The notes under the pieces were generated by a model that worked only from the letters and a program-made list of their open reading frames with translations, searched no databases and was not told where the DNA came from. From a bacterium (GTDB lineage: Bacteria > JAJRZV01), in the NCBI GenBank assembly GCA_024275095.1, contig JAJRZV010000071.1, forward strand, positions 1 through 30,208: 30,208 nucleotides of DNA, read 5' to 3'. Shown piece by piece: positions 1,866 through 15,454 of the stretch; positions within the stretch are counted from its first letter, which is position 1; each line of letters begins with the position of its first letter. Position numbers and translations under genes: made by a program.

Positions 1866-1894
1866 TTGACATAAAGCATGCCCCCTTTAATAAT
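1866..1894 (+). promoter_or_regulatory. Strong sigma-70-type promoter of the cytochrome operon
   Basis: A perfect TTGACA (1866-1871) and AATAAT (1889-1894), five of six matches, are separated by 17 bases. The start would be near 1901, leaving a 5' leader of about 110 bases before the first cytochrome gene at 2013. Confidence 0.65.
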
Positions 1895-1950
1895 AACAGC
1901 CACCTGTTGATTTTTTAGAGATCAGGGCGAGCGGGAGGTGTCGGTAGAAG

Positions 1951-2012
1951 TCAAAATATTTAAATTTTGATAAATGTAAAACCTTTCCGAACCTTTACGA
2001 AGGAGTAGAGGG
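1951..2012 (+). promoter_or_regulatory. Leader of the cytochrome operon: AT-rich inverted repeat, tandem repeat and SD hairpin
   Basis: An inverted repeat TCAAAAT/ATTTTGA (1951-1957 and 1964-1970) could be an operator. Next come two near-identical decamers, ACCTTTCCGA (1981-1990) and ACCTTTACGA (1991-2000). The second CCTT can pair with AAGG at 2000-2003, part of the Shine-Dalgarno AAGGAG (2000-2005) that serves the ATG at 2013. The first decamer could compete for the same pairing. Regulatory function is inferred only from the layout. Confidence 0.3.
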
Positions 2013-2741
2013 ATGCCAGATCAGGTGAAAAGATTGAGCGTGATATTTATTCTGGTAATCAGCGCACTTGTAATAGTGCGGTATCTCCTTATTCCCCCGA
2101 CTTTTGGAAAGTTGGGACACTACAGGGCCAGAGCCTTGGAGGATGCAAAGGCGCTTCCTGTAAAGTACGCGGGTAGGGAAGCGTGTCTGGAATGCCATGA
2201 TGACGTGGGGGATGCCCTTGGAAAATCGTATCATCGAGGTCTTTCGTGTGAGGTTTGTCATGGTCCTGGAGCAAAGCATGTGAAATCTGAAGGAGATGTC
2301 GAACTGGTTGTTCCAGGAAAAAGGAAAGATTGCCTGCGTTGCCATCAATTTCTTTCGTCGAGACCTACAGGGTTTCCTCAGGTAGATCCTCTCCAGCACA
2401 ACCCTGTAAAACCCTGTATCACCTGTCACGACCCTCACGAGCCCGGGCCGCCCCGGGCTCCTGCAGATTGTTCAGGATGTCATACCACCATTGCCAAGAT
2501 AAAGGGTGTATCCCGGCATGTGTCATTAAAGTGTGAAACGTGTCATACGACAAAAGCACAGCATAAATTAGACCCCAGAAAGTTTCGGGCATCCATACCC
2601 GCAGAAAGAGAATTCTGTGGAAAATGTCATGCTAAAAAAGCAAAGGGCTCCTCTGATATTCCACAGGTTGATATTCGTCTTCACGGTGGAAGGTACCTGT
2701 GCTGGGAATGTCACAATCCTCACAATCCTCAAGGAGAGTAA
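2013..2741 (+). CDS. Octahaem c-type cytochrome, membrane anchored
   Basis: A 242-residue periplasmic electron-transfer protein. An N-terminal hydrophobic segment (about 8-27) is followed by eight CxxCH haem sites: CLECH, CEVCH, CLRCH, CITCH, CSGCH, CETCH, CGKCH and CWECH. The signal segment has no clear cleavage site, so it is probably an anchor. Start ATG has AAGGAG seven bases upstream. It heads an operon with an Fe-S protein and an NrfD-like protein directly downstream, the order found in CbcSTU-, Qrc-, Ohc- and ACIII-like quinone-linked complexes. It probably carries electrons between that membrane module and other cytochromes. A GC-rich hairpin lies inside the gene at 2439-2460. The exact partner is unknown. 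Confidence 0.9.
   Translation: MPDQVKRLSVIFILVISALVIVRYLLIPPTFGKLGHYRARALEDAKALPVKYAGREACLECHDDVGDALGKSYHRGLSCEVCHGPGAKHVKSEGDVELVVPGKRKDCLRCHQFLSSRPTGFPQVDPLQHNPVKPCITCHDPHEPGPPRAPADCSGCHTTIAKIKGVSRHVSLKCETCHTTKAQHKLDPRKFRASIPAEREFCGKCHAKKAKGSSDIPQVDIRLHGGRYLCWECHNPHNPQGE
2439..2460 (+). repeat. GC-rich intragenic hairpin in the octahaem cytochrome
   Basis: A perfect nine-base stem, GAGCCCGGG (2439-2447) with CCCGGGCTC (2452-2460), encloses a four-base loop. It lies within codons of the Pro-rich linker EPGPPRAP between haem sites four and five. It is stronger than most structures in the window and could slow translation or arise from Pro codon use. Confidence 0.4.
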
Positions 2742-2743
2742 CA

Positions 2744-3526
2744 ATGAAGAAAGAAAAGAATACCATCAAGAGGAGAGAGTTTCTGAGGAAATTGGCGGAA
2801 GGAGCTTCTGCAGCCGGGTTGCTGTGGCTGTTGCCTGAGGGTATTGCCTACGGGGTCTTTGTGTCGGAACATGCCGGTGAAAACGCCGAACACTATTACG
2901 GTATGGGGATTTATGTGGATCGGTGCATCGGCTGTGGAAAGTGTGTAAACGCGTGCAAGAACGAGAACAATGTGCCGCGCGAGCCGTTCTTTTTCCGTAC
3001 GTGGGTCGAACGGTATGTGATTTTCGAGGATGGAGAGGTAAAAGTTGATAGTCCTGCAGGGGGTGCCGAAGGGTTTCCGCCCCTGGATTCAGAAAAAACA
3101 AACAAGCCTGTGATAAAGTCGTTTTTCGTGCCCAAACTCTGCAATCACTGTGATAATCCCCCGTGTGTTCAGGTGTGCCCTGTGGGAGCCACGTTTAAAT
3201 CGCCCGAAGGGGTGGTTCTGGTTGATGCAGATTATTGCATTGGGTGCAGATACTGCATCCAGGCGTGCCCCTATGGGGCCAGGTATCTCAACCCTCAAAC
3301 AAAGACCGCGGATAAATGTACTTTCTGTTATCACCGATTGGCGCGCGGTTTCCTGCCGGCGTGCGTGGAGATCTGCCCGACAAGAGCAAGAGTGTTTGCA
3401 GACTTGAAAAAACGGAGCAATCCCCTTCAACGGCTCATGCGTCTTGCCGAGGTGCACACCCTCAAGCCTGACCTTAATACCGAACCGAAAGTGTATTATG
3501 CGAACCTGGATGGGGAGGTAAGGTAA
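2744..3526 (+). CDS. Tat-exported 4x[4Fe-4S] ferredoxin subunit (NrfC/HybA/PsrB-like)
   Basis: A 260-residue electron-transfer subunit expected on the periplasmic face. A twin-arginine signal (KRREFL at 9-14, then a hydrophobic stretch) precedes four cysteine clusters: CIGCGKCVNAC, CNHCDNPPCVQVC, CIGCRYCIQAC, and CTFC...CVEIC. All sixteen ligand cysteines are present. Such proteins link an NrfD-type quinone-interacting membrane subunit to a catalytic or cytochrome subunit. I chose ATG 2744, five bases after AAGGAGAG, over upstream in-frame starts that lack a site. The gene follows the octahaem cytochrome by two bases and abuts the NrfD-like gene. TatA/B and TatC are encoded at 14657-15723. 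No molybdopterin catalytic subunit is nearby. Confidence 0.92.
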   Translation: MKKEKNTIKRREFLRKLAEGASAAGLLWLLPEGIAYGVFVSEHAGENAEHYYGMGIYVDRCIGCGKCVNACKNENNVPREPFFFRTWVERYVIFEDGEVKVDSPAGGAEGFPPLDSEKTNKPVIKSFFVPKLCNHCDNPPCVQVCPVGATFKSPEGVVLVDADYCIGCRYCIQACPYGARYLNPQTKTADKCTFCYHRLARGFLPACVEICPTRARVFADLKKRSNPLQRLMRLAEVHTLKPDLNTEPKVYYANLDGEVR

Positions 3527-4765
3527 ATGGAACAATTGATTCATCAACTTTATTCGGCTCTCCAGAATGTAACGGGTTTCATCTATCCGAACGAGATCGA
3601 ACTTCAATGGAGCATTCTCATCGTTATATACCCGTATATTACAGGGCTCGTCGCAGGTGCTTTTATTCTCGCATCTCTAGTGAAGGTGTTTAATGTTAAA
3701 GAGGTGAGTCCTACTTACAGATTGTCTTTGCTCACAGCCCTTGCTTTTCTTATTGTAGCCCCTCTTCCGCTGCTGGCACACCTTGGGCACATGGAGCGCT
3801 CGTACGAGATATTCCTTACCCCTCACCTGAAATCAGCTATGGCCGTGTTCGGGTTTGTGTACCTGTGGTACTTGATGGTGGTTTTGCTTTTGGAAATATG
3901 GTTTGATTATCGAAAGGACATGATCGAATGGGGTAATCAGTCAAGAGGATTGAAAAAGCTCTTTTACCGGTTTCTGGTCTTGTTTTCCAAGGACACCTCT
4001 TCCGAAGCCCTCGCGTTTGATAAGAAAGCCGTAAGGGTGATCACCATAATCGGGATTCCCTCGGCGTTTTTATTACACGGTTACGTGGGATTTATATTCG
4101 GCTCGGTCAAGGCCAATCCGTGGTGGAGCAGTGTTCTTATGCCTGTGGTATTTCTTTTCTCGGCCATTGTTTCAGGAATCGCTCTTGTCCTGCTGCTTTA
4201 CATGATTGCAACAATGCTCAGGGGTGAGAAGCTGGACATGCGATGTCTGGACAGGCTCGCTGACTTCCTCTTTTATTCTATTATTGTAGATTTTTCCCTT
4301 GAAATGCTGGATTTCATACACCGCCTTTATCAATCAGAAGAATCAATAAAAATTATCTCCCAGATGGTGAGCAGCCGTTTGTTCGTCAGCCTTATAGTAA
4401 TACAGATTTTAATTGGTACGCTCGTACCGCTTGGGACCCTGTTTTTCATAAAGATTACGTCCCTGAACGAGGAGCTGCGGCGCTTGCTGTATTTTCTTTC
4501 AGCAATTCTCGTGCAGATCGGAATTTTCAGCACGCGCTGGAATGTAGTGATCGGTGGCCAGCTTTTTTCAAAAAGCTTCAGAGGGCTTACAGTGTATAAA
4601 ATGGAACTGCTTGGAGTTGAAGGATTGCTGGTTGGTATAGCCTTTCTCGTTCTCCCTTTTATAATTCTTTACGTGCTCATGCGGATTTTACCGCCGTGGT
4701 CTTCGCCCGGTCCCGGTGCTGACGAAAATTCTTCTAAACAACTGCAACCTCAGACACAACCGTGA
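3527..4765 (+). CDS. NrfD/PsrC-like integral membrane quinone-interacting subunit
   Basis: A 412-residue polytopic protein with about eight to nine hydrophobic helices. The central stretch with GIPSAFLLHGYVGFIFGS followed by NPWWSSVLMPVVFLFSAIVSG is typical of the NrfD/PsrC/HybB/ActC family, which binds quinone and passes electrons to or from the Fe-S partner. The C-terminus is a hydrophilic Pro/Gln-rich tail. The ATG directly follows the stop of the Fe-S gene. Family members with this gene order occur in Cbc-type menaquinol:cytochrome c reductases and in alternative complex III. The direction of electron flow here cannot be read from sequence. Confidence 0.88.
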   Translation: MEQLIHQLYSALQNVTGFIYPNEIELQWSILIVIYPYITGLVAGAFILASLVKVFNVKEVSPTYRLSLLTALAFLIVAPLPLLAHLGHMERSYEIFLTPHLKSAMAVFGFVYLWYLMVVLLLEIWFDYRKDMIEWGNQSRGLKKLFYRFLVLFSKDTSSEALAFDKKAVRVITIIGIPSAFLLHGYVGFIFGSVKANPWWSSVLMPVVFLFSAIVSGIALVLLLYMIATMLRGEKLDMRCLDRLADFLFYSIIVDFSLEMLDFIHRLYQSEESIKIISQMVSSRLFVSLIVIQILIGTLVPLGTLFFIKITSLNEELRRLLYFLSAILVQIGIFSTRWNVVIGGQLFSKSFRGLTVYKMELLGVEGLLVGIAFLVLPFIILYVLMRILPPWSSPGPGADENSSKQLQPQTQP

Positions 4766-4798
4766 GGAGGAGTAAATAATAATCATGTGAGGATGAAC

Positions 4799-5263
4799 AT
4801 GAATCCTCAAAACCCGGATAATCCAGAAGGAGTAGAGCAGCCGACCAGAAGATCCCTTCTCACGTGGGTTATCCTTTTTTTTACATCCCTGTCAGCTCTG
4901 ATAATAGGTGTTCCTTTACTGCGCTTTCTTTTTCCCCCTGAGAGAGTGATTGAAAAGAGGGGCAGAAAAACATTCGTTGCGCGGATAAAAGATATTCAGA
5001 AAGGTCGAGCGAAGACTGTGTTGTATGAGAACTCCCCTGTGTTGCTCATAAACTATGGGGGAAGTATCAGAGCTGTTTCTGCCATATGTACACACATGGG
5101 ATGTTTCCTGAGATGGGATGACCGCGCGGGTCAGATCAAGTGCCCCTGTCATTATGCAGCTTTTGATATAGACGGAGAGGTTCTTTCCGGTCCGCCGCCG
5201 AGACCTTTGAAAACATTCAAGGTTGAGGTGACTCACGGGAAAATATTTATAGTTAAAGATTGA
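4799..5263 (+). CDS. Rieske [2Fe-2S] protein
   Basis: A 154-residue Rieske subunit of a bc-type complex. It has a twin-arginine motif (TRRSLL, 16-21), an uncleaved membrane helix (about 23-45) and a C-terminal Rieske domain. The ligands are present in CTHMGC (C97, H99, C102) and CPCH (C115, C117, H118). After CPCH it reads YAAFD, where bc1 Rieske proteins have GSxYD. The Ser and Tyr whose hydrogen bonds raise the cluster potential are therefore Ala and Phe, suggesting a low-potential, menaquinol-type cluster. The start is uncertain: ATG 4799 follows GTGAGG by six bases, while GTG 4787 and ATG 4793 are in frame, and a stronger AGGAGGAG lies further upstream. The 3' end overlaps the cytochrome b start by one base. 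Confidence 0.93.
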   Translation: MNPQNPDNPEGVEQPTRRSLLTWVILFFTSLSALIIGVPLLRFLFPPERVIEKRGRKTFVARIKDIQKGRAKTVLYENSPVLLINYGGSIRAVSAICTHMGCFLRWDDRAGQIKCPCHYAAFDIDGEVLSGPPPRPLKTFKVEVTHGKIFIVKD

Positions 5264-6297
5264 TGACTATGATACCCGGAAATAGTCTTTTAAATAATAA
5301 TATCAGAAAAAGGGTTAAGAGCTTCTTTTCTCAACGCGTAAGAGTGGACCTGGATAATTATGTGGGAATATCACTGATTATTCTTTTCATTGTCCAGCTG
5401 CTTACAGGGCTGGGTCTGTCTCTTTATTACCAGCCTTCTCCTACGGAGGCTCACGAAAGCTTAAAATTTATAATGAATGAGCTCCCTTTTGGCTGGCTTA
5501 TCAGAAGTATCCATTACTGGGCTGCACATATGTTCCTGTTTATCGTTCTCGCCCAGCTCATCGCAAAAATGCTCAGAAGAAAGTTTTCCATGACGTACTC
5601 GAATCCCTGGATCGTTGGTTTGATTTTGAGCATTTTTGCCGCCGCCTGGTTTATCACCGGAGAACTTTTGAGCTGGAGCAACAATATTTTCTGGGAGGTT
5701 GATCTTCTGACCGGAGAACTCAATGGAATTCCATTCATAGGAAAGTACATACGGCTTTTTATACGAGGTGGAGAAGCTGTCGGATATTCCACTTTAACCC
5801 GTTTCTACGTATTCCACATTCTTTTCTTTTTACTCATATGTGTTCCACTCGGTATTTACCATGTCTATTCTGCTTTAAAGCACAGGCTTGTTACCTTTTC
5901 TGAAACTCGGGAAGGTAGAGTGCTTTCAGCGTATGTGCTCTCTATTGATACTTTGATAATCATGTTCCTCATTTTTTCTGTACTCATGGGCGTGTCCGTG
6001 TTTCTGCCTCGAGAAATTCCGGAGCTTGCAGACCCGGCCAAGGTGCCGGATGTGATCAGCATCAGCTGGTATATTTACCCTTTCTATAAATTTTACACAT
6101 TGATTCCTGCAAAAATCTTATTTCTAAATCGAGTAACAGTATTTTCTATTTGTATTCTTGTTGTTGCTGGTTTGTATTTTAGCCTGCCGTATATATATTC
6201 CTCTACGCGTAACGCATGGAAAAAAGTTGCTTATGCCTGTGTGGTGGGGTTCACGGGACTCTATGTGATAACGGTGATATGGAGATTGTTGCGATGA
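5263..6297 (+). CDS. Cytochrome b (b6/bc-type) with a missing haem ligand and no PEWY
   Basis: A 344-residue membrane subunit that should hold two b haems and quinone sites. The N-terminal half closely tracks cytochrome b6 (YYQPSPTEAHESLKFIM, FGWLIRSIHYW, STLTRFYVFH). Ligands H84, H185 and H200 are present, but the second helix-B ligand, 14 residues after H84, is Q98 (CAG, 5554-5556). The Qo-site PEWY is replaced by I267-S268-W269-Y270 (6061-6072). The b6 haem-ci cysteine position is also not Cys (about Y33). The C-terminal part resembles subunit IV but is short. Start ATG 5263 overlaps the Rieske stop. The changes suggest altered haem bH and quinol chemistry rather than a canonical Q cycle. 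Confidence 0.92.
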   Translation: MTMIPGNSLLNNNIRKRVKSFFSQRVRVDLDNYVGISLIILFIVQLLTGLGLSLYYQPSPTEAHESLKFIMNELPFGWLIRSIHYWAAHMFLFIVLAQLIAKMLRRKFSMTYSNPWIVGLILSIFAAAWFITGELLSWSNNIFWEVDLLTGELNGIPFIGKYIRLFIRGGEAVGYSTLTRFYVFHILFFLLICVPLGIYHVYSALKHRLVTFSETREGRVLSAYVLSIDTLIIMFLIFSVLMGVSVFLPREIPELADPAKVPDVISISWYIYPFYKFYTLIPAKILFLNRVTVFSICILVVAGLYFSLPYIYSSTRNAWKKVAYACVVGFTGLYVITVIWRLLR

Positions 6298-7490
6298 TAG
6301 AGTGGATGATGGCATTGGTGCTCATCGCTTCACCCTCGCCGGTGAATTCGTGCAGGACGTGTCACGGGGGTGAAAGTTACCTTGATGCGAAAAGTGTACA
6401 CGCCAAATTGTTTGGTTGTACCGAATGCCACGGAGGTGATTCATCTATCCTCACCCGCAAGGCCATGAGCCCGGCCAAAGGGTTCAAAAAAATTCGCAAC
6501 AAAAAAGATATTGCATACCTGTGTGCCCGCTGTCATTCAGATGTGGAGAAGATGCTCCCTTACGGAGAATTTATTGATGAGTTCAGAATTTACAAAACCA
6601 GCAAACACGGTGTTTTGCTTTTTCGAAAAAATGATCAAAAGGTAGCAGTATGTACGGATTGCCACAATGTCCACGACATCAAAGGAGCCGACGATCCCTC
6701 TTCGTCGGTGTATCCATTTAATGTACCCAACACGTGTGGGAAGTGTCACTCTGATGCTGAATATATGAAGGAGTATAAAATCCCTACGGACCAGTTTGAG
6801 GGTTATATCCAGAGTGAACACGGCATTCTTCGAATGCAGAAAAAGGATTTAAGGGCTCCTGGTTGTCCTGAATGTCATGGTGTCCATGGCGCGCGTCCTC
6901 CAGCGGTTAAAGAAATTCACGAAGTGTGTGGAAGGTGTCACAAAGCACAGGATGAGTATTTTAAACAAAGCCCCCATGCTAATTTCTCAGAAGCATTGAA
7001 GGGATGCGAAGGATGTCATGGTAACCACAAGATTGTAAAACCAGACCACAATATTCTTGTCAGTGAAGTTGCAGGTGAGGGCAAGGGATGCCTGGGATGT
7101 CATTCGCCTGAAAGTAAAGAGGAAAAACTAGGCAAGGAGTTGCGAGATATGCTTGTAAAGGCGGAACAGGTTGTTGGACTGGCACTCAACAACATAGAGA
7201 GGGCGCGTTCCAAAGGTTTCGAGGTGGACGAGGAGATGGTAAAGCTGAAAGAAGCACGCGGATTCGTTGTGGAGGCTCTTACGGTTATTCATTCGTTGAA
7301 CAGGGAGCTCGTGTGGGAATATACACAGGATGCTGTTGTGGCAGCGGAAGACATCAATGACCTGGTAAAGGCGAAACTTATTGAGTGGAGAGATCGGCGT
7401 GTAATGTTCGTGTTCAATATTTTTGTTTTCGCTGTTTCGGCTGTGCTCCTTTTTATACGACGACGTAGAAGGATCAGGGAGGAGGTCTGA
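6294..7490 (+). CDS. Nonahaem c-type cytochrome with C-terminal membrane anchor
   Basis: A 398-residue protein. A short hydrophobic signal (about 1-18) leads directly to nine CxxCH sites: CRTCH, CTECH, CARCH, CTDCH, CGKCH, CPECH, CGRCH, CEGCH and CLGCH. An alpha-helical stretch (about 275-360) of coiled-coil character follows, then a C-terminal helix (VMFVFNIFVFAVSAVLLF) and a basic tail, so the haem domain is periplasmic and anchored at the far end. The ATG overlaps the cytochrome b stop (ATGA), with GGAG nine bases upstream. Frames further upstream lie inside the cytochrome b gene. It probably takes the place of cytochrome c1 in this complex. That role is inferred from position. Confidence 0.9.
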   Translation: MIEWMMALVLIASPSPVNSCRTCHGGESYLDAKSVHAKLFGCTECHGGDSSILTRKAMSPAKGFKKIRNKKDIAYLCARCHSDVEKMLPYGEFIDEFRIYKTSKHGVLLFRKNDQKVAVCTDCHNVHDIKGADDPSSSVYPFNVPNTCGKCHSDAEYMKEYKIPTDQFEGYIQSEHGILRMQKKDLRAPGCPECHGVHGARPPAVKEIHEVCGRCHKAQDEYFKQSPHANFSEALKGCEGCHGNHKIVKPDHNILVSEVAGEGKGCLGCHSPESKEEKLGKELRDMLVKAEQVVGLALNNIERARSKGFEVDEEMVKLKEARGFVVEALTVIHSLNRELVWEYTQDAVVAAEDINDLVKAKLIEWRDRRVMFVFNIFVFAVSAVLLFIRRRRRIREEV

Positions 7491-8896
7491 TGGGATTTAA
7501 GAACTGGCTTTTGAGAAGAAAACTTCTGCTGAAAGTGTTGAATGTGATCGGCATTCATGTGCCTGTAGATCGCAAGGACATTCTCCATTTTTCTCCCAGG
7601 TTTCTCACCACACTTGGTGTGTTGTTTATAATCTTTATTGTAGGAGCCCTGGCGTTTTTAAAGTTCAGCACGAGCCCGTACTTTTGTGGCATGTGCCATA
7701 TTATGAAACCGTATTATCAGGCCTGGAAGAACTCTTCTCACAATTTTGTGCCATGTGTTGATTGCCACTATCCGCCAGGATTCGCAGAGGAGTTCAGAGG
7801 CAAGATCCAGGCATCTGTCCAGGTGTTTAAATACATTACGCGAACTTACAGCACGAAGCCTTATGCTGAAATAGAGGATGCCAGTTGCTTGAGAAAGGGC
7901 TGTCACAACAAGCGCCTGCTGGAAGGAAAGGTGACGTTCAAGAAGGGTATTATTTTTGATCACAAGCCTCACCTTATGCAGATCAGGCGAGGGCGGAAGC
8001 TCAGGTGCACTTCGTGCCATTCTCAAATTGTGGTCGGTTCTCACATTGCAGTGACGGAAAGTGTTTGTTTCATCTGTCATTTTAAACCGGAAAGTGACGG
8101 CTCAACCCCGAAAATTGCAAAGTGTACAATCTGTCACACACCTCCCAAAAAGGAGATTGAACTGGCGGGTATCTCTTATAACCACGAGGACTTTGTAAAC
8201 AGGGGTGTTGCGTGTACTAAATGTCATTTTAAAATCATCCAGGGCAACGGGGACGTTCCCAAGGAGATGTGTCTTACCTGTCACGGTGAACCGGAAAAAC
8301 TGGAAAAGTATAATGATCACGCACTTATTCATGACACCCACGTAACCAAGCACAAGGTGGAATGCTTCCAGTGTCATACGGATATTACCCACCGCGTTTC
8401 CACGAACATCATGGTGTTAAAAAATGATTGTTCCTCGTGTCATGCAAACATGCACGATGCCCAGAAAAATCTGTACGCGGGTACTGGCGGCAAGGGTGTG
8501 GAAAATATGCCTTCGCCCATGTTTATTGCGAAAGTGGATTGTACGGGATGTCACATAAATCCACAGTCAAACGGACATTTCTCATTTAGCGAGAGCACCA
8601 TGGAACCAGCAGAAGCTGCCTGCCTGAATTGCCACGGCACGGATTACGAAGGGGTGGTGGAAGAGTGGGAAACCACCGTTAAAGAGGAACTGAAGGCTTT
8701 CGAAAAAGTATACGCGCAGACAAAAAGAATTCTAAGGGGAAGAAAACTGACGGCGAAGCAGAAGAAAGCACTGGAAGAAGCTATTTATAATTACAACCTT
8801 GTGAAGTGGGGAAAGGGTGTCCACAACGTAGAATATGCCACTGCCCTGCTCCAGCATGCCCGGGACACGCTGCGTAAGCTTGTTAAGGGTCAGTAA
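7490..8896 (+). CDS. Dodecahaem c-type cytochrome with NapC/NrfH-like N-terminus
   Basis: A 468-residue cytochrome. One membrane helix (about 37-60) is followed by FCGMCHIMKPYYQAW, typical of the NapC/NirT/NrfH family of quinol-linked cytochromes, where CGMC is followed by the first haem. Haem sites are CGMCH, CVDCH, an unusual CLRKGCH (Cx4CH), then CTSCH, CFICH, CTICH, CTKCH, CLTCH, CFQCH, CSSCH, CTGCH and CLNCH, twelve in all. A lysine-rich helical tail (about 385-468) resembles the end of the preceding cytochrome. The ATG overlaps the preceding stop by one base, with GGAGGAGG just upstream. It is the last gene of the operon; its stop is two bases from the convergent cyclase gene. Confidence 0.9.
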   Translation: MGFKNWLLRRKLLLKVLNVIGIHVPVDRKDILHFSPRFLTTLGVLFIIFIVGALAFLKFSTSPYFCGMCHIMKPYYQAWKNSSHNFVPCVDCHYPPGFAEEFRGKIQASVQVFKYITRTYSTKPYAEIEDASCLRKGCHNKRLLEGKVTFKKGIIFDHKPHLMQIRRGRKLRCTSCHSQIVVGSHIAVTESVCFICHFKPESDGSTPKIAKCTICHTPPKKEIELAGISYNHEDFVNRGVACTKCHFKIIQGNGDVPKEMCLTCHGEPEKLEKYNDHALIHDTHVTKHKVECFQCHTDITHRVSTNIMVLKNDCSSCHANMHDAQKNLYAGTGGKGVENMPSPMFIAKVDCTGCHINPQSNGHFSFSESTMEPAEAACLNCHGTDYEGVVEEWETTVKEELKAFEKVYAQTKRILRGRKLTAKQKKALEEAIYNYNLVKWGKGVHNVEYATALLQHARDTLRKLVKGQ

Positions 8897-8898
8897 AT

Positions 8899-9684
8899 TT
8901 ATTTTACCCACGCAATCACGCGTGCCGGCGAGCCGCTTCCGCCTTTTACAGGAAGAGGAAATACACACACAAAAGCTCCGCGCGGGGGCAGATCGCCGGG
9001 AATAAAGAGATTTTCTATGATGATACGGTCGTAACCGAGTACAACTTTGTGAGCTGAAAAATCCTGAGATAGACCCGGGTCCAGGCTGAGTGTGTCTATC
9101 CCGATACCGTAAACTTTACGGCCTTTTACAAGAATTTCTGCCGCTTCTTTGCTTACGCCTGGAAAGTGCATTATGCCTTTTTCGTCCTGGTTAAGGTAGG
9201 TTTTGGGGTTTTTCCACTTTTCAGACCACCCGGTGTTCACAAGCACAAAGGAACCCCTCGGAATATGACCGTACCGGCTCTCAAATTTTTCCACGTCGGA
9301 GATGGAAAGCGCGTAATCAGATGATTGTTTTACACTGTCGCGTATGTCCAGCACGACAGCCGGACCACAAAGATGGTCAATTTCCAGTTTGTCCACCTCC
9401 CGGCCTTCTTCCAGAAAGTGTGATGGGGCATCTATGTGTGTGCCTGTGTGTTCGCTCATGGTAATGGTATGCATGGTGTATCCGTCCCGTGCGAGTGTTT
9501 TGTATTTGGTGAGTGAGAATGGAATTCCACCCGGGAAATAAGGGATGCCGTTTTCCAACGTGTGTGTAAGGTCTATCATGCGATAATCGCGTTGAAGCAC
9601 CTGCCAGGGTTCCTTGCTGGAGCAGGCGGATGCAATAGCGAGCGTTAAAATTAGCGCGAGTGCCATTAAATGTATTTTCTTCAT
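8899..9684 (-). CDS. Cyclase-family (kynurenine formamidase-like) metal-dependent hydrolase, lipoprotein
   Basis: A 261-residue member of the cyclase family (PF04199). The metal-binding motif HTGTHIDAPSHF is intact, preceded by LTHTLENGIPYFPG, which is typical of the family. The N-terminus is a lipoprotein signal ending ASAC (C21), so the enzyme is probably attached to a membrane outside the cytoplasm, unusual for a family with many cytoplasmic kynurenine formamidases. The substrate is unknown. The start is ATG 9684, overlapping the HIT gene stop by one base, rather than the TTG one codon earlier. It is the last gene of the his run and may be functionally unrelated to histidine. Confidence 0.85.
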   Translation of the reverse strand: MKKIHLMALALILTLAIASACSSKEPWQVLQRDYRMIDLTHTLENGIPYFPGGIPFSLTKYKTLARDGYTMHTITMSEHTGTHIDAPSHFLEEGREVDKLEIDHLCGPAVVLDIRDSVKQSSDYALSISDVEKFESRYGHIPRGSFVLVNTGWSEKWKNPKTYLNQDEKGIMHFPGVSKEAAEILVKGRKVYGIGIDTLSLDPGLSQDFSAHKVVLGYDRIIIENLFIPGDLPPRGAFVCVFPLPVKGGSGSPARVIAWVK

Positions 9685-10028
9685 CAAGCCATCCTCGGGT
9701 TGAGCAGTTCTCCGCCGATAACATGAAGATGAAGGTGAAACACGGTCTGACCCGCATCTTTCCCTGAATTGATGACAAGCCGATATCCGGACCTGTCCAC
9801 ACCTTTCAACTGAGCCACCTTTTTGCCGGCAAGGAGAAGTTTGCCCAGCAGGGCTGGATCGTCCGTTTCTTCGATTCCCGTGATGTGAGCCTTTGGAATG
9901 ACCAGCGTGTGTACCCGAGCCTGGGGGTTAATGTCTTCAAAGGCAAAGAAATCTTCATCTTCGTATACTTTTGTTGATTCCAGCTCGCCCCTTACGATTT
10001 TGCAAAATATGCATTCAGCAGATGCCAT
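9684..10028 (-). CDS. HIT-family (HINT-like) nucleotide-binding protein
   Basis: A 114-residue histidine triad protein. The catalytic HxHxH motif is seen as HLHLHVIGG near the C-terminus, with the N-terminal CIFCKIVRGE and INPQARVHTLVIPKAHI typical of bacterial HINT/PKCI-type proteins. These hydrolyse phosphoramidates of purine nucleotides. It lies 16 bases after hisIE and overlaps the cyclase gene by one base, so it is probably co-transcribed with the his genes. A GGAGGTG Shine-Dalgarno precedes the ATG. A role in histidine synthesis is not implied by the family. Confidence 0.93.
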   Translation of the reverse strand: MASAECIFCKIVRGELESTKVYEDEDFFAFEDINPQARVHTLVIPKAHITGIEETDDPALLGKLLLAGKKVAQLKGVDRSGYRLVINSGKDAGQTVFHLHLHVIGGELLNPRMA

Positions 10029-10044: not shown

Positions 10045-10707
10045 TCAATTTTCTTTTTTTGATGATTCTTTACGCCTGCCGTATCTGCTTTTCAAGTGTT
10101 TCAGGACTTCATTGAACGGAATATCTGCCCACACAAGAGCCATGAGTATGAAAAATAAAACATCAGCGGCCTCCCATATAATTCCGTCACGGTTGCCCTG
10201 AGAGAGGGCTTCTGTGAATTCTTCTGATTCTTCTACAACCTTAGCAGATATGGCTTCGCGGCCTTTCTGAAACAGACGGGCTGTATAGGAACCCTCGGGT
10301 TTCGTTTGCTTGCGCTGGCGGAGGAGCTCCTCCAGGACTTCAAGGAACGGTGTTCCTGGAGGCTCGTTTTCACGGCGGTAAATATCTGTGAAAAAGCAGG
10401 TGGAATTGCCTGTGTGACATGCAGGGCCAGTCTGTTCTACTTCATACAGAAGCGTGTCTCCGTCACAATCCAGTTTTATCCCGACAATTTTTTGCACGTG
10501 TCCGGATGCTTCGCCCTTTTTCCACAGTTTTTTCCTGGAGCGGGACCAGTAATGAGCAAAGCCCGTTTCAAGAGTTTTGTTCAGGGCTTCTTCATTGGCG
10601 TAAGCAACCATGAGCACCTTGCCCGTCAGGTGATCCACCGCAACAACGGGCACCAGACCGTTGGAATCAAATCGTATGTTTTTTATTGTTTTGTCTGTTG
10701 AACTCAT
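10045..10707 (-). CDS. hisIE: Bifunctional phosphoribosyl-AMP cyclohydrolase / phosphoribosyl-ATP pyrophosphatase
   Basis: Carries out steps 2 and 3 of histidine synthesis. The N-terminal HisI domain (about 1-115) has the zinc and substrate motif [21 protein letters not shown] followed by NSTCFF. The C-terminal HisE domain (about 120-215) has [13 protein letters not shown] and [11 protein letters not shown]. The 220-residue length is right for the fusion. The start overlaps hisF by four bases (ATGA). A basic and acidic tail ends the protein. Confidence 0.96.
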
Positions 10708-11465
10708 AGCCTCACCACCACTCCTTTTTCTCTCAGGTACTGTTTCACTTCGCTGATGCGGAGCTCACCGAAATGGAACACACTGGCAGCCAGCACTGCG
10801 TCTGCACGTCCTTCCACAAGTCCCTCATAAAAATGGTGAAGCGTACCCACTCCGCCTGAGGCAATAACCGGGATGGTGACGCTGCTCGATACCGTACGCG
10901 TGAGTTCAATATCGTAACCTTCCTTGGTTCCGTCTCTATCCATGCTCGTGAGAAGTATTTCTCCGGCTCCCAGTTCTTCCACGCGCATGGCCCATTCCAC
11001 CGCGTCTATGCCTGTGGGACGACGGCCTCCGTGCGTGTACACCTCCCACCCACCCTCTCTGCGGCGCCTTGCATCAATGGCTACCACAATGCACTGGCTT
11101 CCGAAAATTTCGCTAGCTTTTTTCACAAGCTCTGGATTCTGGACAGCAGCGGTGTTGATGCTGACCTTATCAGCTCCTGCCAAAAGCATTTCCCTGATGT
11201 CTTCTACGGTTCGAATTCCACCCCCCACCAGTAATGGCACAAAAACCCTTTCGGCGGTACGTTGTACCACATCAACCATTGTTTTTCTGCCTTCGCTGGA
11301 AGCGGTAATGTCCAGAAAACATATCTCATCTGCACCCTCTCGATCATACAGGCTTGCACACTCTACGGGATCGCCGGCGTCCCGGATGTTGACGAACTTA
11401 ATTCCCTTAACGACCCTTCCAGCGTCTACGTCCAGACACGGGATGATGCGCTTGGCAAGAGGCAT
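10704..11465 (-). CDS. hisF: Imidazole glycerol phosphate synthase cyclase subunit
   Basis: The (beta/alpha)8 barrel that, with HisH, turns PRFAR into imidazole glycerol phosphate and AICAR. The start [21 protein letters not shown] carries the catalytic D11, and the second catalytic Asp lies in VVAIDARR near residue 130. Phosphate-binding motifs GGGIRTVED and IASGGVGT are present. The 253-residue length is standard. It starts two bases after hisA ends and overlaps hisIE by four. Confidence 0.97.
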
Positions 11466-11467
11466 GG

Positions 11468-12184
11468 TCAGCCTTCCAAGATTTTCTCGAGGGATATTTT
11501 ACCTTCATAAACCGCTTTCCCTATAACCACTCCCATGAGCTTGGGATGATTCATGGACCGCAGAATTGCAATGTCTTTCTCCGAGGCCACGCCGCCTGCA
11601 GCAATAACGGGAAAGGGCGACATGTCAAGGATGCGGCACAGCCTTTCTGTGTTGACACCCTGGAGTGTTCCATCCTTTGTGACATCCGTGTGCAGGACCG
11701 CGTGGATTGGGAAACCACTGAACATTCGAAAAGCCATGGCAGGTGTAAGCGCTTCGTCACCTGTCCATCCTGATGTTACGACTGTATTTTCACGCGTGTC
11801 TATGCTCAATATGATTTTTCCGGGGAATTCCCTGGTGATTTTTTTAAAGCGGTCAAAGGCTTTAAATGCGAAGGACGATACCATCACGTAATCTATTCCT
11901 GCATTTAAATAGTCACGTATATGGCTTTCATCTCTTAAGCCGCCGCCTGTTTGGATCTCGCATCTCACGGCCGAGCGTATGGCATTTACAACCCCGGTGT
12001 TAACGGGATGTCCCCTGAAGGCTCCGTCCAGATCAACAATGTGGATGCGACGTGCTCCGGCTTTTTCGAACCAGCGGGCAATTTCCACGGGATCACGGTC
12101 GTAAAATGTAACCCTGCTTTTTTCCCCCTGGAAGAGGCGTGCGACGCGTCCTTCGAAAATATCGATGGCCGGGATAATCAGCAC
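11468..12184 (-). CDS. hisA: ProFAR isomerase
   Basis: The 1-(5-phosphoribosyl)-5-[(phosphoribosylamino)methylideneamino]imidazole-4-carboxamide isomerase, a (beta/alpha)8 barrel homologous to His[21 protein letters not shown] supplies the N-terminal catalytic Asp (D8); VDLDGAFRG and GGGLRDE are family motifs, and [12 protein letters not shown] holds the second catalytic Asp. Length 238 is standard. It overlaps hisH by seven bases and precedes hisF by two. Confidence 0.96.
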
Positions 12185-12795
12185 GGTCCCCAGGTGATAA
12201 AGTTTTCTAAGATTTTGAGCCCCGCTTTTTGACTCTTTTCTGGGTGGAATTGAAACGCAACAACGTTATCACGTGCCATGGCCGAAGGAAAGTTAATAGT
12301 GTATTCTGTAAACGCAAGCACGTCTTCTTTGTTTGCACTTGCACAATAGTAAGAGTGAACAAAGTAGAAAAAGGTCCCATCAGGTAGATCTTTGAGGACA
12401 GGATGCTCATGTTGGAAATATACGCTGTTCCAGCCCATGTGAGGAATTTTCCCTACTCTTTCTGGAAACCGTACCACCTTTCCATAAAAATACCCGAATC
12501 CGGTGTGGTGCCCGAATTCTTCGCTTTCTTCCATAAGGAGCTGGAGTCCCAAGCATATGCCAAGAAAAGGCTTCCCTTTTTTAATAAAGTCCTGCGTTGC
12601 TTCCCACAACCCGTCCTTTTTTAAATTGTGAACCGCATCCCTGAAGGCTCCTACGCCAGGCAGTATCAGCGCATCCGCACGTAAGATGTCTTCTGCTCTT
12701 CCGCTGATGCGAACGTTGCCTCCCACCGCCTCCACGGCCTTGAGAACACTTTTAAGATTGCCCATGCCGTAATCTACAACGACGATATCTTTCAC
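12178..12795 (-). CDS. hisH: Imidazole glycerol phosphate synthase glutaminase subunit
   Basis: A class I glutamine amidotransferase supplying ammonia to HisF. The motifs are complete: VVDYGMGNLKS, LPGVGAF, the nucleophile loop GICLGLQLL, and the His-Glu pair in FHPEKS. The 205-residue length is normal. The ATG overlaps the hisB stop by four bases, and the gene overlaps hisA by seven. Partner hisF lies two genes downstream. Confidence 0.97.
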   Translation of the reverse strand: MKDIVVVDYGMGNLKSVLKAVEAVGGNVRISGRAEDILRADALILPGVGAFRDAVHNLKKDGLWEATQDFIKKGKPFLGICLGLQLLMEESEEFGHHTGFGYFYGKVVRFPERVGKIPHMGWNSVYFQHEHPVLKDLPDGTFFYFVHSYYCASANKEDVLAFTEYTINFPSAMARDNVVAFQFHPEKSQKAGLKILENFITWGPC

Positions 12796-13385
12796 TCCTC
12801 CCTCAACCTCCCTTTCGTAGATGGCACGCCTTCACTGCGGGGATCAATGCTCACGGCTTCACGAAGGGCTCTGGCAACAGATTTGAAAATACTCTCTGCT
12901 ACATGATGTGGATCACGCCCCTTTTTAGGGTAAATGTGCAGCGTGAGTTTGGCGTGTGTGGTTAAAGCGGTGAAAAAGGACTCCAGAAGAACTAAAGGGA
13001 AGTTCCCGGCGCTCAGGCTTCCAGGCTGAAAGTCAAGTATTAAGTAGGGCCTTCCACTAACATCGACAGACGAGAGTGTAAAGGCTTCATCCATTGGAAC
13101 CGCTGCCCAGCCGTATCGTTGAATTTTCTCTCTTTTCCCGAGTGCCTGGTCCAGGGCCTGGCCCAGGGTAATTCCCACGTCCTCGACCGTGTGATGAAAA
13201 TCTACGGTAACATCACCTTCTGCCTTTATCACCATGTCAAATCCTCCATGACGTGAGAAGAGTTCGAGCATGTGGTTGAAGAAGGGGATGCCGGTTTCAA
13301 TTTCATATTTTCCCTTTCCATCCAGATTGAGAGCCACCCGGATGATGGTTTCTTTAGTTTCTCGGGTTATGGTGGCGTTTCGCAT
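12792..13385 (-). CDS. hisB: Imidazoleglycerol-phosphate dehydratase
   Basis: A monofunctional 197-residue IGP dehydratase, without the HisN phosphatase domain of enterobacteria. The manganese ligands are in FHHTVEDVG and in the C-terminal DPHHVAES motif; the first metal region reads FFNHMLELFSRHGG. PMDEAF and DVSGRPYL are also present. I chose ATG 13385, preceded by AAGGAGGAG, over an in-frame ATG at 13460 whose extra 25 residues have no family counterpart. It heads the run hisB-H-A-F-IE; hisG, hisD and hisC are not in the window. Confidence 0.96.
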   Translation of the reverse strand: MRNATITRETKETIIRVALNLDGKGKYEIETGIPFFNHMLELFSRHGGFDMVIKAEGDVTVDFHHTVEDVGITLGQALDQALGKREKIQRYGWAAVPMDEAFTLSSVDVSGRPYLILDFQPGSLSAGNFPLVLLESFFTALTTHAKLTLHIYPKKGRDPHHVAESIFKSVARALREAVSIDPRSEGVPSTKGRLREE

Positions 13386-13452
13386 GCCATTCTCCTCCTT
13401 TTGTTCAGTTATAAAAGTGCAGTATTCATCTTGCCACAGTATAATAAAATAA
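13386..13452. promoter_or_regulatory. Divergent promoter region of the his run and the DUF4230 genes
   Basis: The two ATGs are only 67 bases apart. On the plus strand a perfect TATAAT (13440-13445) sits so close to the ATG at 13453 that the transcript would be nearly leaderless. Its -35 region is poor. On the minus strand TATAAC (13413-13408) is a candidate -10 for hisB, also with a weak -35. Confidence 0.35.
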
Positions 13453-14055
13453 ATGAGCAAAATTCTACGGGTATTAATAGCTCTGGGGATTGTTTTTATA
13501 AGCTACTTTGTGATCGCAAATTACCTTTCCTATCGATCTGTGACAAAGCAAACGTACGCCACTGTAAAGTTGTTTTATAAGCGGTTCAGTCCCGAAATCG
13601 CGGTGATTAAAAGAGCATATACGTTTGTAAACCGGAAAAAGCAGGCTTTGGGGATTTTCAGGCGTGAACACTTTGTAGCGGTGAATGGTGTTGTAACGGT
13701 GGGGTTCAAGCTTTCAAATATGCAGGTTGGTTTTTCGAAGAGAGATTCAGAAAAATACGTTTTAAAGGTAACTCTTCCCGCTCCAGAGGTGCTCACCGTG
13801 AGCATTAAGGAAGTGCTCGATCCCACCGGAGCCCTTGCAGCTCCTGAAGAGTACAATGCTGTCATTCAAGCGGCCATTCAGAACTTCAAAGCTCGAGCCC
13901 TCAGACCGGGCAATGTGCTTCTTGCCTACTCGGTTGTCAGGCGCCAGCTGGAGACCGTCTTTCGCGAAATTTTCCCGGCTGAACATCTTCGAATTGAATT
14001 TATTGCTCCAGGCGTGAAGTTTCAGGGGGATAAGGTCATAAAAATTAATAGATGA
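13453..14055 (+). CDS. DUF4230 family membrane-anchored protein (first of a pair)
   Basis: A 200-residue protein with one N-terminal signal or anchor helix (about 5-25) and an extracytoplasmic domain of the DUF4230 type: AVNGVVTVGFKLSNMQV, a LKVTLPAPEVLTVSI strand pattern, and a late helix with an alternating Arg/Ala face (QNFKARALRPGNVLLAYSVVRRQL). The function of DUF4230 is not known. There is no recognisable ribosome binding site; see the near-leaderless promoter. The 3' end overlaps the next gene by four bases. The second gene shares the same plan, so the two are probably an ancient tandem duplicate. Confidence 0.75.
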   Translation: MSKILRVLIALGIVFISYFVIANYLSYRSVTKQTYATVKLFYKRFSPEIAVIKRAYTFVNRKKQALGIFRREHFVAVNGVVTVGFKLSNMQVGFSKRDSEKYVLKVTLPAPEVLTVSIKEVLDPTGALAAPEEYNAVIQAAIQNFKARALRPGNVLLAYSVVRRQLETVFREIFPAEHLRIEFIAPGVKFQGDKVIKINR

Positions 14056-14681
14056 AGGTGCAAGGAAAAACATGGTCACGAATTTATATTGTACTTTTAC
14101 CTGTTCTTTTATTATGTTTTCTCGGCGTTTGGTCTGCATTTAATCATGTTCTCAAGGTTGCGGTAGAGGATCACATCCGTGAGGCAATCGTTCACTCTTC
14201 CTCTTTCTTTCATACCCTCAGGTACGGGATGGATACCACGATGTGTTTTGACCAGGAGTTGAGAAAGATATTTCCACTGTATCGGGAAAGCAATGCATTT
14301 GCCTGTTTCCGTGTAAATGCAGAGATTGTGGGAGGCTTTGATTTTTCGCGAATAGAGATAGAATCCAATGTAAGCACCTGGAAGAACCTGCTGGATCCAT
14401 TCTATCAGAAGGAAATTACTGTACGCATTCCTCCCCCTGAGGTGGTGAGTGTGAACGGCATCAGTTACGAAATGCTTTACGCCAAAAACTGGAAAGAATT
14501 TCCCTTTCTCGAAAGAGCCAGATTTTTACAGATCGTGGAAAAGCGTCTTAGGGAAAAAGCGGTGGAGATGGGTCTTTTAAAGGACACGGCAGAATATTTT
14601 GCTGCTTTTATAACTGAGCTTGGTGCAGTTTACGGTGTGCGCGTAAAGGTCGCGGTTCAGGAGGGTTCATCATCTCCTTGA
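14052..14681 (+). CDS. DUF4230-like membrane-anchored protein (second of a pair)
   Basis: A 209-residue protein with an N-terminal helix (about 10-30) and a domain that parallels its upstream neighbour: FACFRVNAEIVGGFDFSRIEI, then EITVRIPPPEVVSVNG, then a C-terminal helix. It is more divergent than the first copy, so family assignment rests on this pattern and on adjacency. The ATG overlaps the previous stop. Its end overlaps the convergent tatC by 25 bases. No function can be assigned. Confidence 0.65.
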   Translation: MKVQGKTWSRIYIVLLPVLLLCFLGVWSAFNHVLKVAVEDHIREAIVHSSSFFHTLRYGMDTTMCFDQELRKIFPLYRESNAFACFRVNAEIVGGFDFSRIEIESNVSTWKNLLDPFYQKEITVRIPPPEVVSVNGISYEMLYAKNWKEFPFLERARFLQIVEKRLREKAVEMGLLKDTAEYFAAFITELGAVYGVRVKVAVQEGSSSP

Positions 14682-15454
14682 TTTTCTTCTTTTCTGAGAA
14701 GGCCGGTGATTTTAACCCCCAGCGCCCCGATTTCGAACAATATTAAAAGAGGCACGGCCAGGCTGATCTGGGTAAAGACATCGGGCGGGGTTAATATTGC
14801 GGCAAGGGTGAACACAGCCACCGCAGCATAAGGTCTGAAACGCTTTATGTCTTCATAAGAGATTATTCCCAGTGTGCCCAGAAGAATCATAACCACGGGT
14901 GAGAGGAAGGCCACGCCGAAGGAAAAAGCCAGCGTGAATACAAATGACAGATACTCACGTATGGAAATCATGGGATTCAGAAAATTTCCAGAGAATGCTC
15001 CTATGAGAAACCGAAGTCCGTATGGGAGCACCACAAAATAAGAAAAAGCGGCACCTGTGAGAAAGAGAATTGCGGAAGGGATAAGTACTGCAATGGTGTA
15101 GACCCGTTCGTGGCGGTAAAGCCCGGGTGCTACAAAAGCCCATATTTCGTAAAGTATTATGGGAGACGAAATAAAAAAACCTGCGATAAGGCTTACTTTG
15201 AGGTATGTAAGGAAAGCCTCCGTCGGTTTGATAAAAACGACTTTTGCATCAGGGAATGATTGCTGGTAAGGTGCTACCAGCCATTTGAGAATCCATTCGG
15301 AAAAAACATACGAGCCTATGGCCGCGATGGCTACAGCAGCAAGACATACTAAAATGCGACGCCGAAGTTCTTCCAGGTGTTCTGTAAGGGGCATCTCAAG
15401 AGTATCATCATGAGCACCTGTGTCTGACCTGGTGTGAGTGGATTCGTCACTCAT
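14657..15454 (-). CDS. tatC: Sec-independent protein translocase TatC
   Basis: The 265-residue receptor component of the twin-arginine translocase, with six membrane helices. Family motifs are visible: LTEHLEELRRRIL at the N-terminus, FIKPTEAFLTYLKVS, SPIILYEIWAFVAPGLYRHER, and AILTPPDVFTQ. The N-terminus has an extra hydrophilic stretch of about 20 residues. It follows tatA/B with a four-base overlap. It would export the Fe-S (2744-3526) and Rieske (4799-5263) proteins, both with twin-arginine motifs. Its 3' end overlaps the convergent DUF4230 gene by 25 bases. Confidence 0.96.
   Translation of the reverse strand: MSDESTHTRSDTGAHDDTLEMPLTEHLEELRRRILVCLAAVAIAAIGSYVFSEWILKWLVAPYQQSFPDAKVVFIKPTEAFLTYLKVSLIAGFFISSPIILYEIWAFVAPGLYRHERVYTIAVLIPSAILFLTGAAFSYFVVLPYGLRFLIGAFSGNFLNPMISIREYLSFVFTLAFSFGVAFLSPVVMILLGTLGIISYEDIKRFRPYAAVAVFTLAAILTPPDVFTQISLAVPLLILFEIGALGVKITGLLRKEENQGDDEPS

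Follow-up and report, generated by a model that had tools for sequence, protein, structure and literature searches.

The 30,208-nucleotide bacterial contig JAJRZV010000071.1 (the window, from genome G000) harbours a seven-gene operon (2013-8896, all genes on the + strand) that combines an iron-sulphur (Fe-S)/NrfD module with a Rieske/cytochrome b module and three cytochromes c with 8, 9 and 12 haem motifs (c8, c9 and c12). The predicted proteins suggest, with confidence and doubt in about equal measure, that it codes for a two-module (mena)quinol:multihaem-cytochrome c oxidoreductase of the inner membrane, whose Rieske/b half would not bifurcate electrons. That half is probably a one-way electron outlet.

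Usually, bc complexes are recognised by two b haems and a PEWY motif, as the Q cycle needs them. The Rieske [2Fe-2S] protein of the window (4787-5263, +, 158 aa; Pfam Rieske, 3.2e-16) has the CTHxGC and CPCH motifs of canonical bc complexes, its ligands (CTHMGC...CPCH) being intact by alignment. In contrast, the adjacent cytochrome b (5260-6297, +, 345 aa; Cytochrome_B, 1.2e-35), identified also by alignment to cytochrome b6, departs from the canonical form. The ligands of haem bL, His85 in helix B and His186 in helix D, are retained, and so is the helix-D ligand of haem bH, His201. However, the set of four haem-b His is incomplete (H85, Q99, H186, H201), with Gln99 at the position of the helix-B bH ligand, and the PEWY motif of the quinol oxidation (Qo) site, canonically with E or D in second place, reads ISWY, devoid of Glu. 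By comparison, the bH-ligand column contains His in all 59 other cytochromes b that have that column.

We ruled out a misalignment of Gln99: in a PDB search, the helix B region aligned without gaps to the cytochromes b6 of spinach and Mastigocladus, with Gln99 falling on the ligand His, and wider alignments agreed. In the AlphaFold2 model (predicted local distance difference test, pLDDT, of 80) the fold of cytochrome b is preserved, and Foldseek matched the model to bc1/b6f. A pseudogene was judged unlikely given the intact frame, this model and purifying selection, the latter measured in relatives and not on the window gene itself.

The replacement of the bH ligand by Gln99, together with the loss of the PEWY Glu, makes canonical Q-cycle bifurcation in the Rieske/b half unlikely, which disfavours the bifurcating system put forward in a preliminary description of this DNA. 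The H212N variant of R. capsulatus has been called a haem bH knock-out (PMC4807273), and without bis-His ligation of bH electrons should be unable to take their usual route to the quinone reduction (Qi) site. The Qo Glu has been proposed, among other candidates, as a proton acceptor (PMC9162462).

Relatives of the altered cytochrome b

Fourteen relatives share the double loss, namely a clade of 12 members in the phylum of genome G194 (including locus L084) and one sequence each from G207 (L204) and G349 (L215). Their helix-B bH position is occupied by Arg, or by Gln in G349, and their Qo motifs read PPWY, APWY or SPWY. In every relative that could be scored for both, the bH ligand and the Qo Glu were lost together. 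In seven relatives the second bH ligand is gone too, with Thr replacing His201. Across the relatives as a whole, Gly120, a residue packing against haem bH, is Ala in most. The bL ligands and bL glycines are kept in all 15 altered cytochromes b. The altered relatives that could be tested are under purifying selection, with ratios of non-synonymous to synonymous substitution rates (dN/dS) of 0.26-0.43 for cytochrome b and 0.11-0.50 for the Rieske protein.

A profile of the altered cytochromes b detected the altered form in 4 of 386 genomes sampled across the domain; the other high-scoring matches that were scored are canonical. The whole-phylum list of G194 contains neither the window genome nor G207 or G349; provided that this list is complete, the altered form spans three phyla or more. 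In phylogenetic trees the window sequence groups with L215 (89/92), and the Arg-containing sequences form a clade of their own (100/100). The best tree separates these two groups, and 57% of the bootstrap trees have a single origin; the loss of the bH ligand arose in one or two lineages. In the open-access papers searched, we found no report of a naturally bH-less cytochrome b.

Contig permitting, the altered cytochrome b gene is followed by c9 and then by a gene for a NapC-like cytochrome c with 12 to 18 haems. Thus, its constant setting is the four-gene set Rieske-cytb-c9-c12-18, not NrfD. Three of the bH-less Rieske/b operons adjoin genes for proteins of ~1070 aa with 42 CXXCH motifs, including 18 doubled-CXXCH stretches (L240, 9372-12614; L241, 4590-7823; L242, 2462-5653). 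In L215, whose Qo motif is SPWY, cytochrome b is split; its subunit-IV-like half (7132-8121) and the Rieske protein (6235-6882) each carry an extra N-terminal soluble stretch of unassigned family.

Several observations weigh against a two-module enzyme with a non-bifurcating Rieske/b half. An NrfD module is missing from the surroundings of most bH-less relatives (L204, L215, L240-L243 and L245), and the two halves may thus belong to separate complexes. The window cytochrome b retains one of the two bH ligands together with the packing glycines G36 and G120, so that haem bH could be five-coordinate or have another ligand. Glu135 in the cd1 region stands at a position normally occupied by Tyr and could substitute for the PEWY Glu. 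His-Lys haem ligation is functional in bc1 mutants (PMC4807273). Lastly, the window sequence is highly divergent, with at most 31-33% identity to any sequence found and a very long branch (end branch 3.1-6.0).

The Rieske/b half might thus still perform a Q cycle, if haem bH were high-spin or had other ligands and the Qo acid had moved to Glu135. We regard this as unlikely. The conservation of His201, Gly36 and Gly120, the presence of Glu135 and the working His-Lys mutants would all fit such a cycle, as would the fact that Qo-motif residues differ by lineage (PMC9162462). Nevertheless, the second ligand and/or the packing Gly is also lost in most relatives, and both the bH ligand and the Qo Glu are gone from all scorable sequences. 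Neither Gln nor Arg at this position is known to ligate haem b in a bundle of membrane helices, which we also count against a retained Q cycle.

We give equally little credence to the idea that the Rieske/cytochrome b pair has become a remnant, decaying or serving only as a scaffold for c9 and c12, and handles no quinol. The long branch of cytochrome b is in line with decay, as are the Gemmatimonadota relatives with Rieske proteins devoid of any cluster ligand next to NrfD modules. However, the window retains the complete set of Rieske ligands and the two bL ligands, the open frame yields a reasonable model, and purifying selection operates on the relatives.

Operon genes and linkage of the two modules

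All seven genes were inspected individually, and the Pfam matches behind every assignment exceed the gathering scores, so the gene content and identities of the preliminary description stand. None of the seven proteins exceeds a curated NCBIfam cut-off. The first gene codes for c8 (2013-2741, +, 242 aa), an octahaem c-type cytochrome with eight CXXCH motifs, Pfam matches to Cytochrome_C7/Cytochrom_c3_2 and a single N-terminal transmembrane segment predicted from hydropathy (residues 3-32). It is followed by the gene for an NrfC/PsrB/CbcT-like protein exported by twin-arginine translocation (2744-3526, +, 260 aa; Fer4_11 of the 4Fe-4S dicluster proteins, 4.1e-28; PsrB chain 2VPW_B, 1.7e-45), with an RR motif and 16 Cys arranged in four groups, from which four [4Fe-4S] clusters are expected. 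The third product is an NrfD/PsrC-type quinone-reactive membrane subunit (3527-4765, +, 412 aa). Its family membership is supported by a Pfam NrfD score of 130.6 bits for a cut-off of 25.8 (1.3e-37) and by the adjoining 4x[4Fe-4S] periplasmic protein, and its nearest relatives share 54-72% identity with it. The NrfD profile matched no solved chain in the PDB even at an E-value of 10, and a scan of IMG/VR with NrfD gave no match.

Downstream of the Rieske and cytochrome b genes, c9 (6294-7490, +, 398 aa; nine CXXCH motifs, Pfam c7/paired CXXCH domains) occupies the place of cytochrome c1/f and accompanies Rieske/b in relatives. Its predicted anchor is C-terminal (368-390, hydropathy), as in c1 and f. 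The last gene product, c12 (7490-8896, +, 468 aa), has 11 CXXCH motifs and one CX4CH, a NapC/NirT head followed by c3/c7 domains (Pfam), and a predicted N-terminal anchor (31-65, hydropathy) as in NapC. Its head may be NrfH-like: residues 41-101 match the NrfH structure 2J7A (E 2e-6) and Cytochrom_NNT is above its Pfam cut-off (2.9e-12), whereas the matches to the NCBIfam models of NrfH (2.1e-18) and NapC remain under theirs. Both c9 and c12 resemble multihaem partners anchored in the membrane. Altogether, the operon codes for 29 haem c motifs (8 + 9 + 12; 28 CXXCH and one CX4CH), as counted in the preliminary description. No cytochrome c1, oxidase or molybdopterin subunit was found among the seven genes, all of which were identified.

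The genes are tightly packed, with successive intergenic spacings of +2, 0, +21, -4, -4 and -1 bp, and a single transcription unit is therefore likely. The earlier proposal of one operon behind one promoter is thus supported in its first part. A sigma70-like match (TTGACA-17-AATAAT; 1866-1894, +) lies upstream and agrees with the consensus at 11 of 12 positions, but such matches are no more numerous across the region than in shuffled sequence, which makes it a consensus match only.

We collected NrfD relatives from the 386 genomes and from 80 named contigs. A Rieske/cytochrome b pair was found in the flanks of 26 of the 80 named NrfD loci (within 5 kb in 24 and on the same strand in 22), including 20 of the 41 loci whose flanks reach 8 kb or more in either direction. 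The chance expectation is ~0.3 loci, from a background of ~0.24 cytochrome b matches per Mb. The Poisson p-value is ~2e-41 with this background density, and 6e-22 even if five Rieske/b loci per genome are assumed; these values overstate independence because many loci share ancestry. The pairing is also seen in genomes outside the 80 named loci. A chance neighbourhood of two modules that never travel together elsewhere, the outcome that would have undone the initial proposal, was therefore rejected, as linkage is far above expectation in several phyla.

The search for a conserved gene order that had been suggested gave a positive answer. The c8-FeS-NrfD genes form a stable three-gene unit, the cytochrome having eight haems near the window NrfD and four further out. 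The order c8-FeS-NrfD-Rieske-cytb(-c9), identical to the first six genes of the window, recurs in 11 named loci, from Fidelibacterota (L112), Acidobacteriota (L184), an unclassified metagenome-assembled genome (MAG; L122) and MAGs labelled Ignavibacteria or Bacteroidetes (L118, L124, L126, L128, L132, L136, L141 and L157). In L132, c9 was not seen as one frame. A circular permutation, Rieske-cytb-c9-c18/22-c8-FeS-NrfD, occurs in Zixibacteria (L164, L175), in the phylum of G194 (L084, L238, L239) and in one Gemmatimonadota genome (L189). Each module is also found alone, and gene orders are permuted between lineages.

Second Rieske/cytochrome b copies lie beside the NrfD module in Gemmatimonadota (L148, 17629-19498; L174, 16949-18720; L189, 3067-4847). 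None of the four [2Fe-2S] ligands is left in their Rieske domains, where CTH and CPCH are replaced. The cytochromes b of these copies keep the four haem-b His, their Qo motif reads STWV or SSWI, and dN is well below dS.

It is quite conceivable, if somewhat short of an even chance, that the operon codes for a Cbc4-like complex (c8-FeS-NrfD) and a Cbc3/Ext-like one (Rieske-b-c9-c12), both ordinary quinol:cytochrome complexes with no physical connection, co-transcribed only as both feed one multihaem pool. Most c8/c4-FeS-NrfD loci have no Rieske/b and many Rieske-b-c9 loci no NrfD, which, like the permuted gene orders, is consistent with separate complexes, and Geobacter carries Cbc3 and Cbc4 in distinct clusters (PMC11434368). 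In contrast, the linkage far over chance in several phyla, the identical order in 11 named loci and the close packing of the window genes (-4 to +21 bp apart) argue for a closer relationship.

Proposed electron flow and host genome

In a two-module oxidoreductase, quinol would be oxidised at NrfD on the periplasmic side, and the electrons of this CbcSTU/Cbc4-like module would pass through the four [4Fe-4S] clusters to c8, a route suggested also for NrfD complexes elsewhere, CbcSTU among them (PMC11434368; PMC8076601). NrfD may couple quinol oxidation to proton movement, and any energy conservation would be left to it. The second module (Rieske-cytochrome b-c9-c12) would be a specialised Rieske/b unit with no bifurcating Q cycle, because the bis-His ligation of bH and the Qo-motif Glu are lost. 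Electrons could then exit on the periplasmic side only, via the Rieske cluster and perhaps haem bL, to c9 and c12, and quinol oxidation would be linear, without charge separation. From c9 and c12, electrons would reach periplasmic or extracellular acceptors. We infer this direction of flow, the absence of bifurcation, the hand-over between modules and the electron destination.

Reverse operation, in which the multihaem cytochromes feed external electrons into the quinone pool, appears improbable. In its favour, NrfD complexes of the Qrc and Nhc types use periplasmic cytochromes as the electron source for quinone reduction (PMC13059093, PMC8076601), and the loss of bifurcation removes forward coupling. 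Nevertheless, NapC/NrfH-like heads such as that of c12 and Rieske proteins are usually tied to quinol oxidation.

More tentatively, there might be a selectively maintained class of Rieske/b without a Q cycle in several phyla, assembled here in a supercomplex with NrfD, which would take over quinol chemistry and energy coupling, all electrons leaving on the periplasmic side via the 29 c haems. Cytochromes b that drop normal bH ligation while the Rieske cluster and haem bL are kept represent a natural experiment on a bc complex without bifurcation. The altered lineage also bears on why multihaem-rich bacteria combine bc-type with NrfD-type modules. For genome-based bioenergetics it calls for caution, as a Rieske/cytochrome b gene pair is not always a proton-translocating complex III.

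The host genome has a second, canonical Rieske/cytochrome b (four His and PEWY) with an octahaem cytochrome c, split over two contig ends (L249, 3-2112, and L250, 5759-9192; contigs C127 and C120). It adjoins genes for two FAD_binding_4 proteins that resemble, by eye, p-cresol methylhydroxylase subunits. CXXCH codon matches number 428 in the genome, as opposed to 139 for the reversed pattern, i.e. ~290 above this control, and no COX1 or haem-copper oxidase was found in the whole genome, which extends the earlier remark that the operon has no oxidase. The host is thus a multihaem-rich bacterium devoid of haem-copper oxidase, and periplasmic or extracellular multihaem acceptors would be the natural destination of electrons.

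In the window, the operon is followed, 2 bp away and in convergent orientation, by a gene for a putative cyclase (PF04199) with a lipoprotein-like N-terminus (8899-9687, -). Beyond it are histidine biosynthesis genes on the minus strand (~10045-13460) and tandem DUF4230 genes (13453-14678, +) opposite tatC (14660-15454).

Comparison with known systems

The preliminary description held that known complexes use one module or the other. This does not stand: the six-gene order recurs in the 11 loci, and the hybrid module content is already known from PcmABCDEFG of Geobacter metallireducens (Gmet_2117-2123), which is upregulated in direct interspecies electron transfer co-culture with M. barkeri. 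Besides a membrane protein, PcmABCDEFG comprises one 4Fe-4S and one Rieske protein, two cytochromes b and two tetrahaem cytochromes c (PMC10989804). Compared by described content, it groups in one cluster the same types of proteins as the window, including two multihaem cytochromes c. However, it has two cytochrome b genes and two tetrahaem cytochromes, and 8-, 9- and 12-haem cytochromes are not listed.

Taken separately, the modules resemble other Geobacter systems. Cbc4 (CbcSTU) is, like the first module, a three-gene unit for a c-type cytochrome, an Fe-S protein and a membrane protein (PMC11434368), but CbcS has four haems and c8 eight, so that the window does not fit the tetrahaem definition, and no Rieske/b is attached. 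In Cbc3 (CbcVWX) and the Ext cluster (extKLMNOPQS), Rieske and cytochrome b proteins come with multihaem cytochromes c that replace c1, as in the window, those of Ext having 12 and 10 haems (PMC10989804, PMC2825233, PMC5877670). Unlike the window, they have no NrfD module. With the ExtP model NF040969 (selenite/tellurite operon), the window cytochrome b scores 115.5 bits, below the cut-off of 290.

Alternative complex III and Qrc share with the window an NrfD-type subunit, an Fe-S protein and a multihaem cytochrome c (PMC8076601). The operon lacks both the ActB-type molybdopterin-like domain and the second NrfD-like subunit, and thus does not code for an Alternative complex III; it has a Rieske/b partner instead. 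In the anammox Rieske/b complexes (Kuste4569-4574, Kustd1480-1485), a hexa- or octahaem cytochrome c replaces c1/f, akin to the window (PMC12954380), but the attached module is an NAD(P) oxidoreductase rather than FeS-NrfD. Caldithrix has a Rieske/b pair without c1 (PMC5317091). The Melioribacter papers describe an Alternative complex III and an NrfCD pair, not the hybrid, and the 2013 paper reported no cytochrome bc1 genes in M. roseus.

The closest clusters in gene order are those of Ignavibacteriota, Fidelibacterota and Acidobacteriota, but they have a canonical cytochrome b (HHHH, PEWY) and no 12-haem NapC-like gene directly after. Conversely, the Rieske/b-c9-c17/18 clusters of G207, G349 and the phylum of G194 resemble the window in having neither the helix-B bH ligand nor the Qo Glu, and in the succession of c9 and a NapC-like c17/18. 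They differ from it by Arg in place of Gln, except in G349, by a permuted order and by an NrfD module attached only in L084, L238 and L239. What is new is how widely the fixed gene order is distributed and, as far as the open-access literature goes, the cytochrome b lineage or lineages without normal bH ligation.

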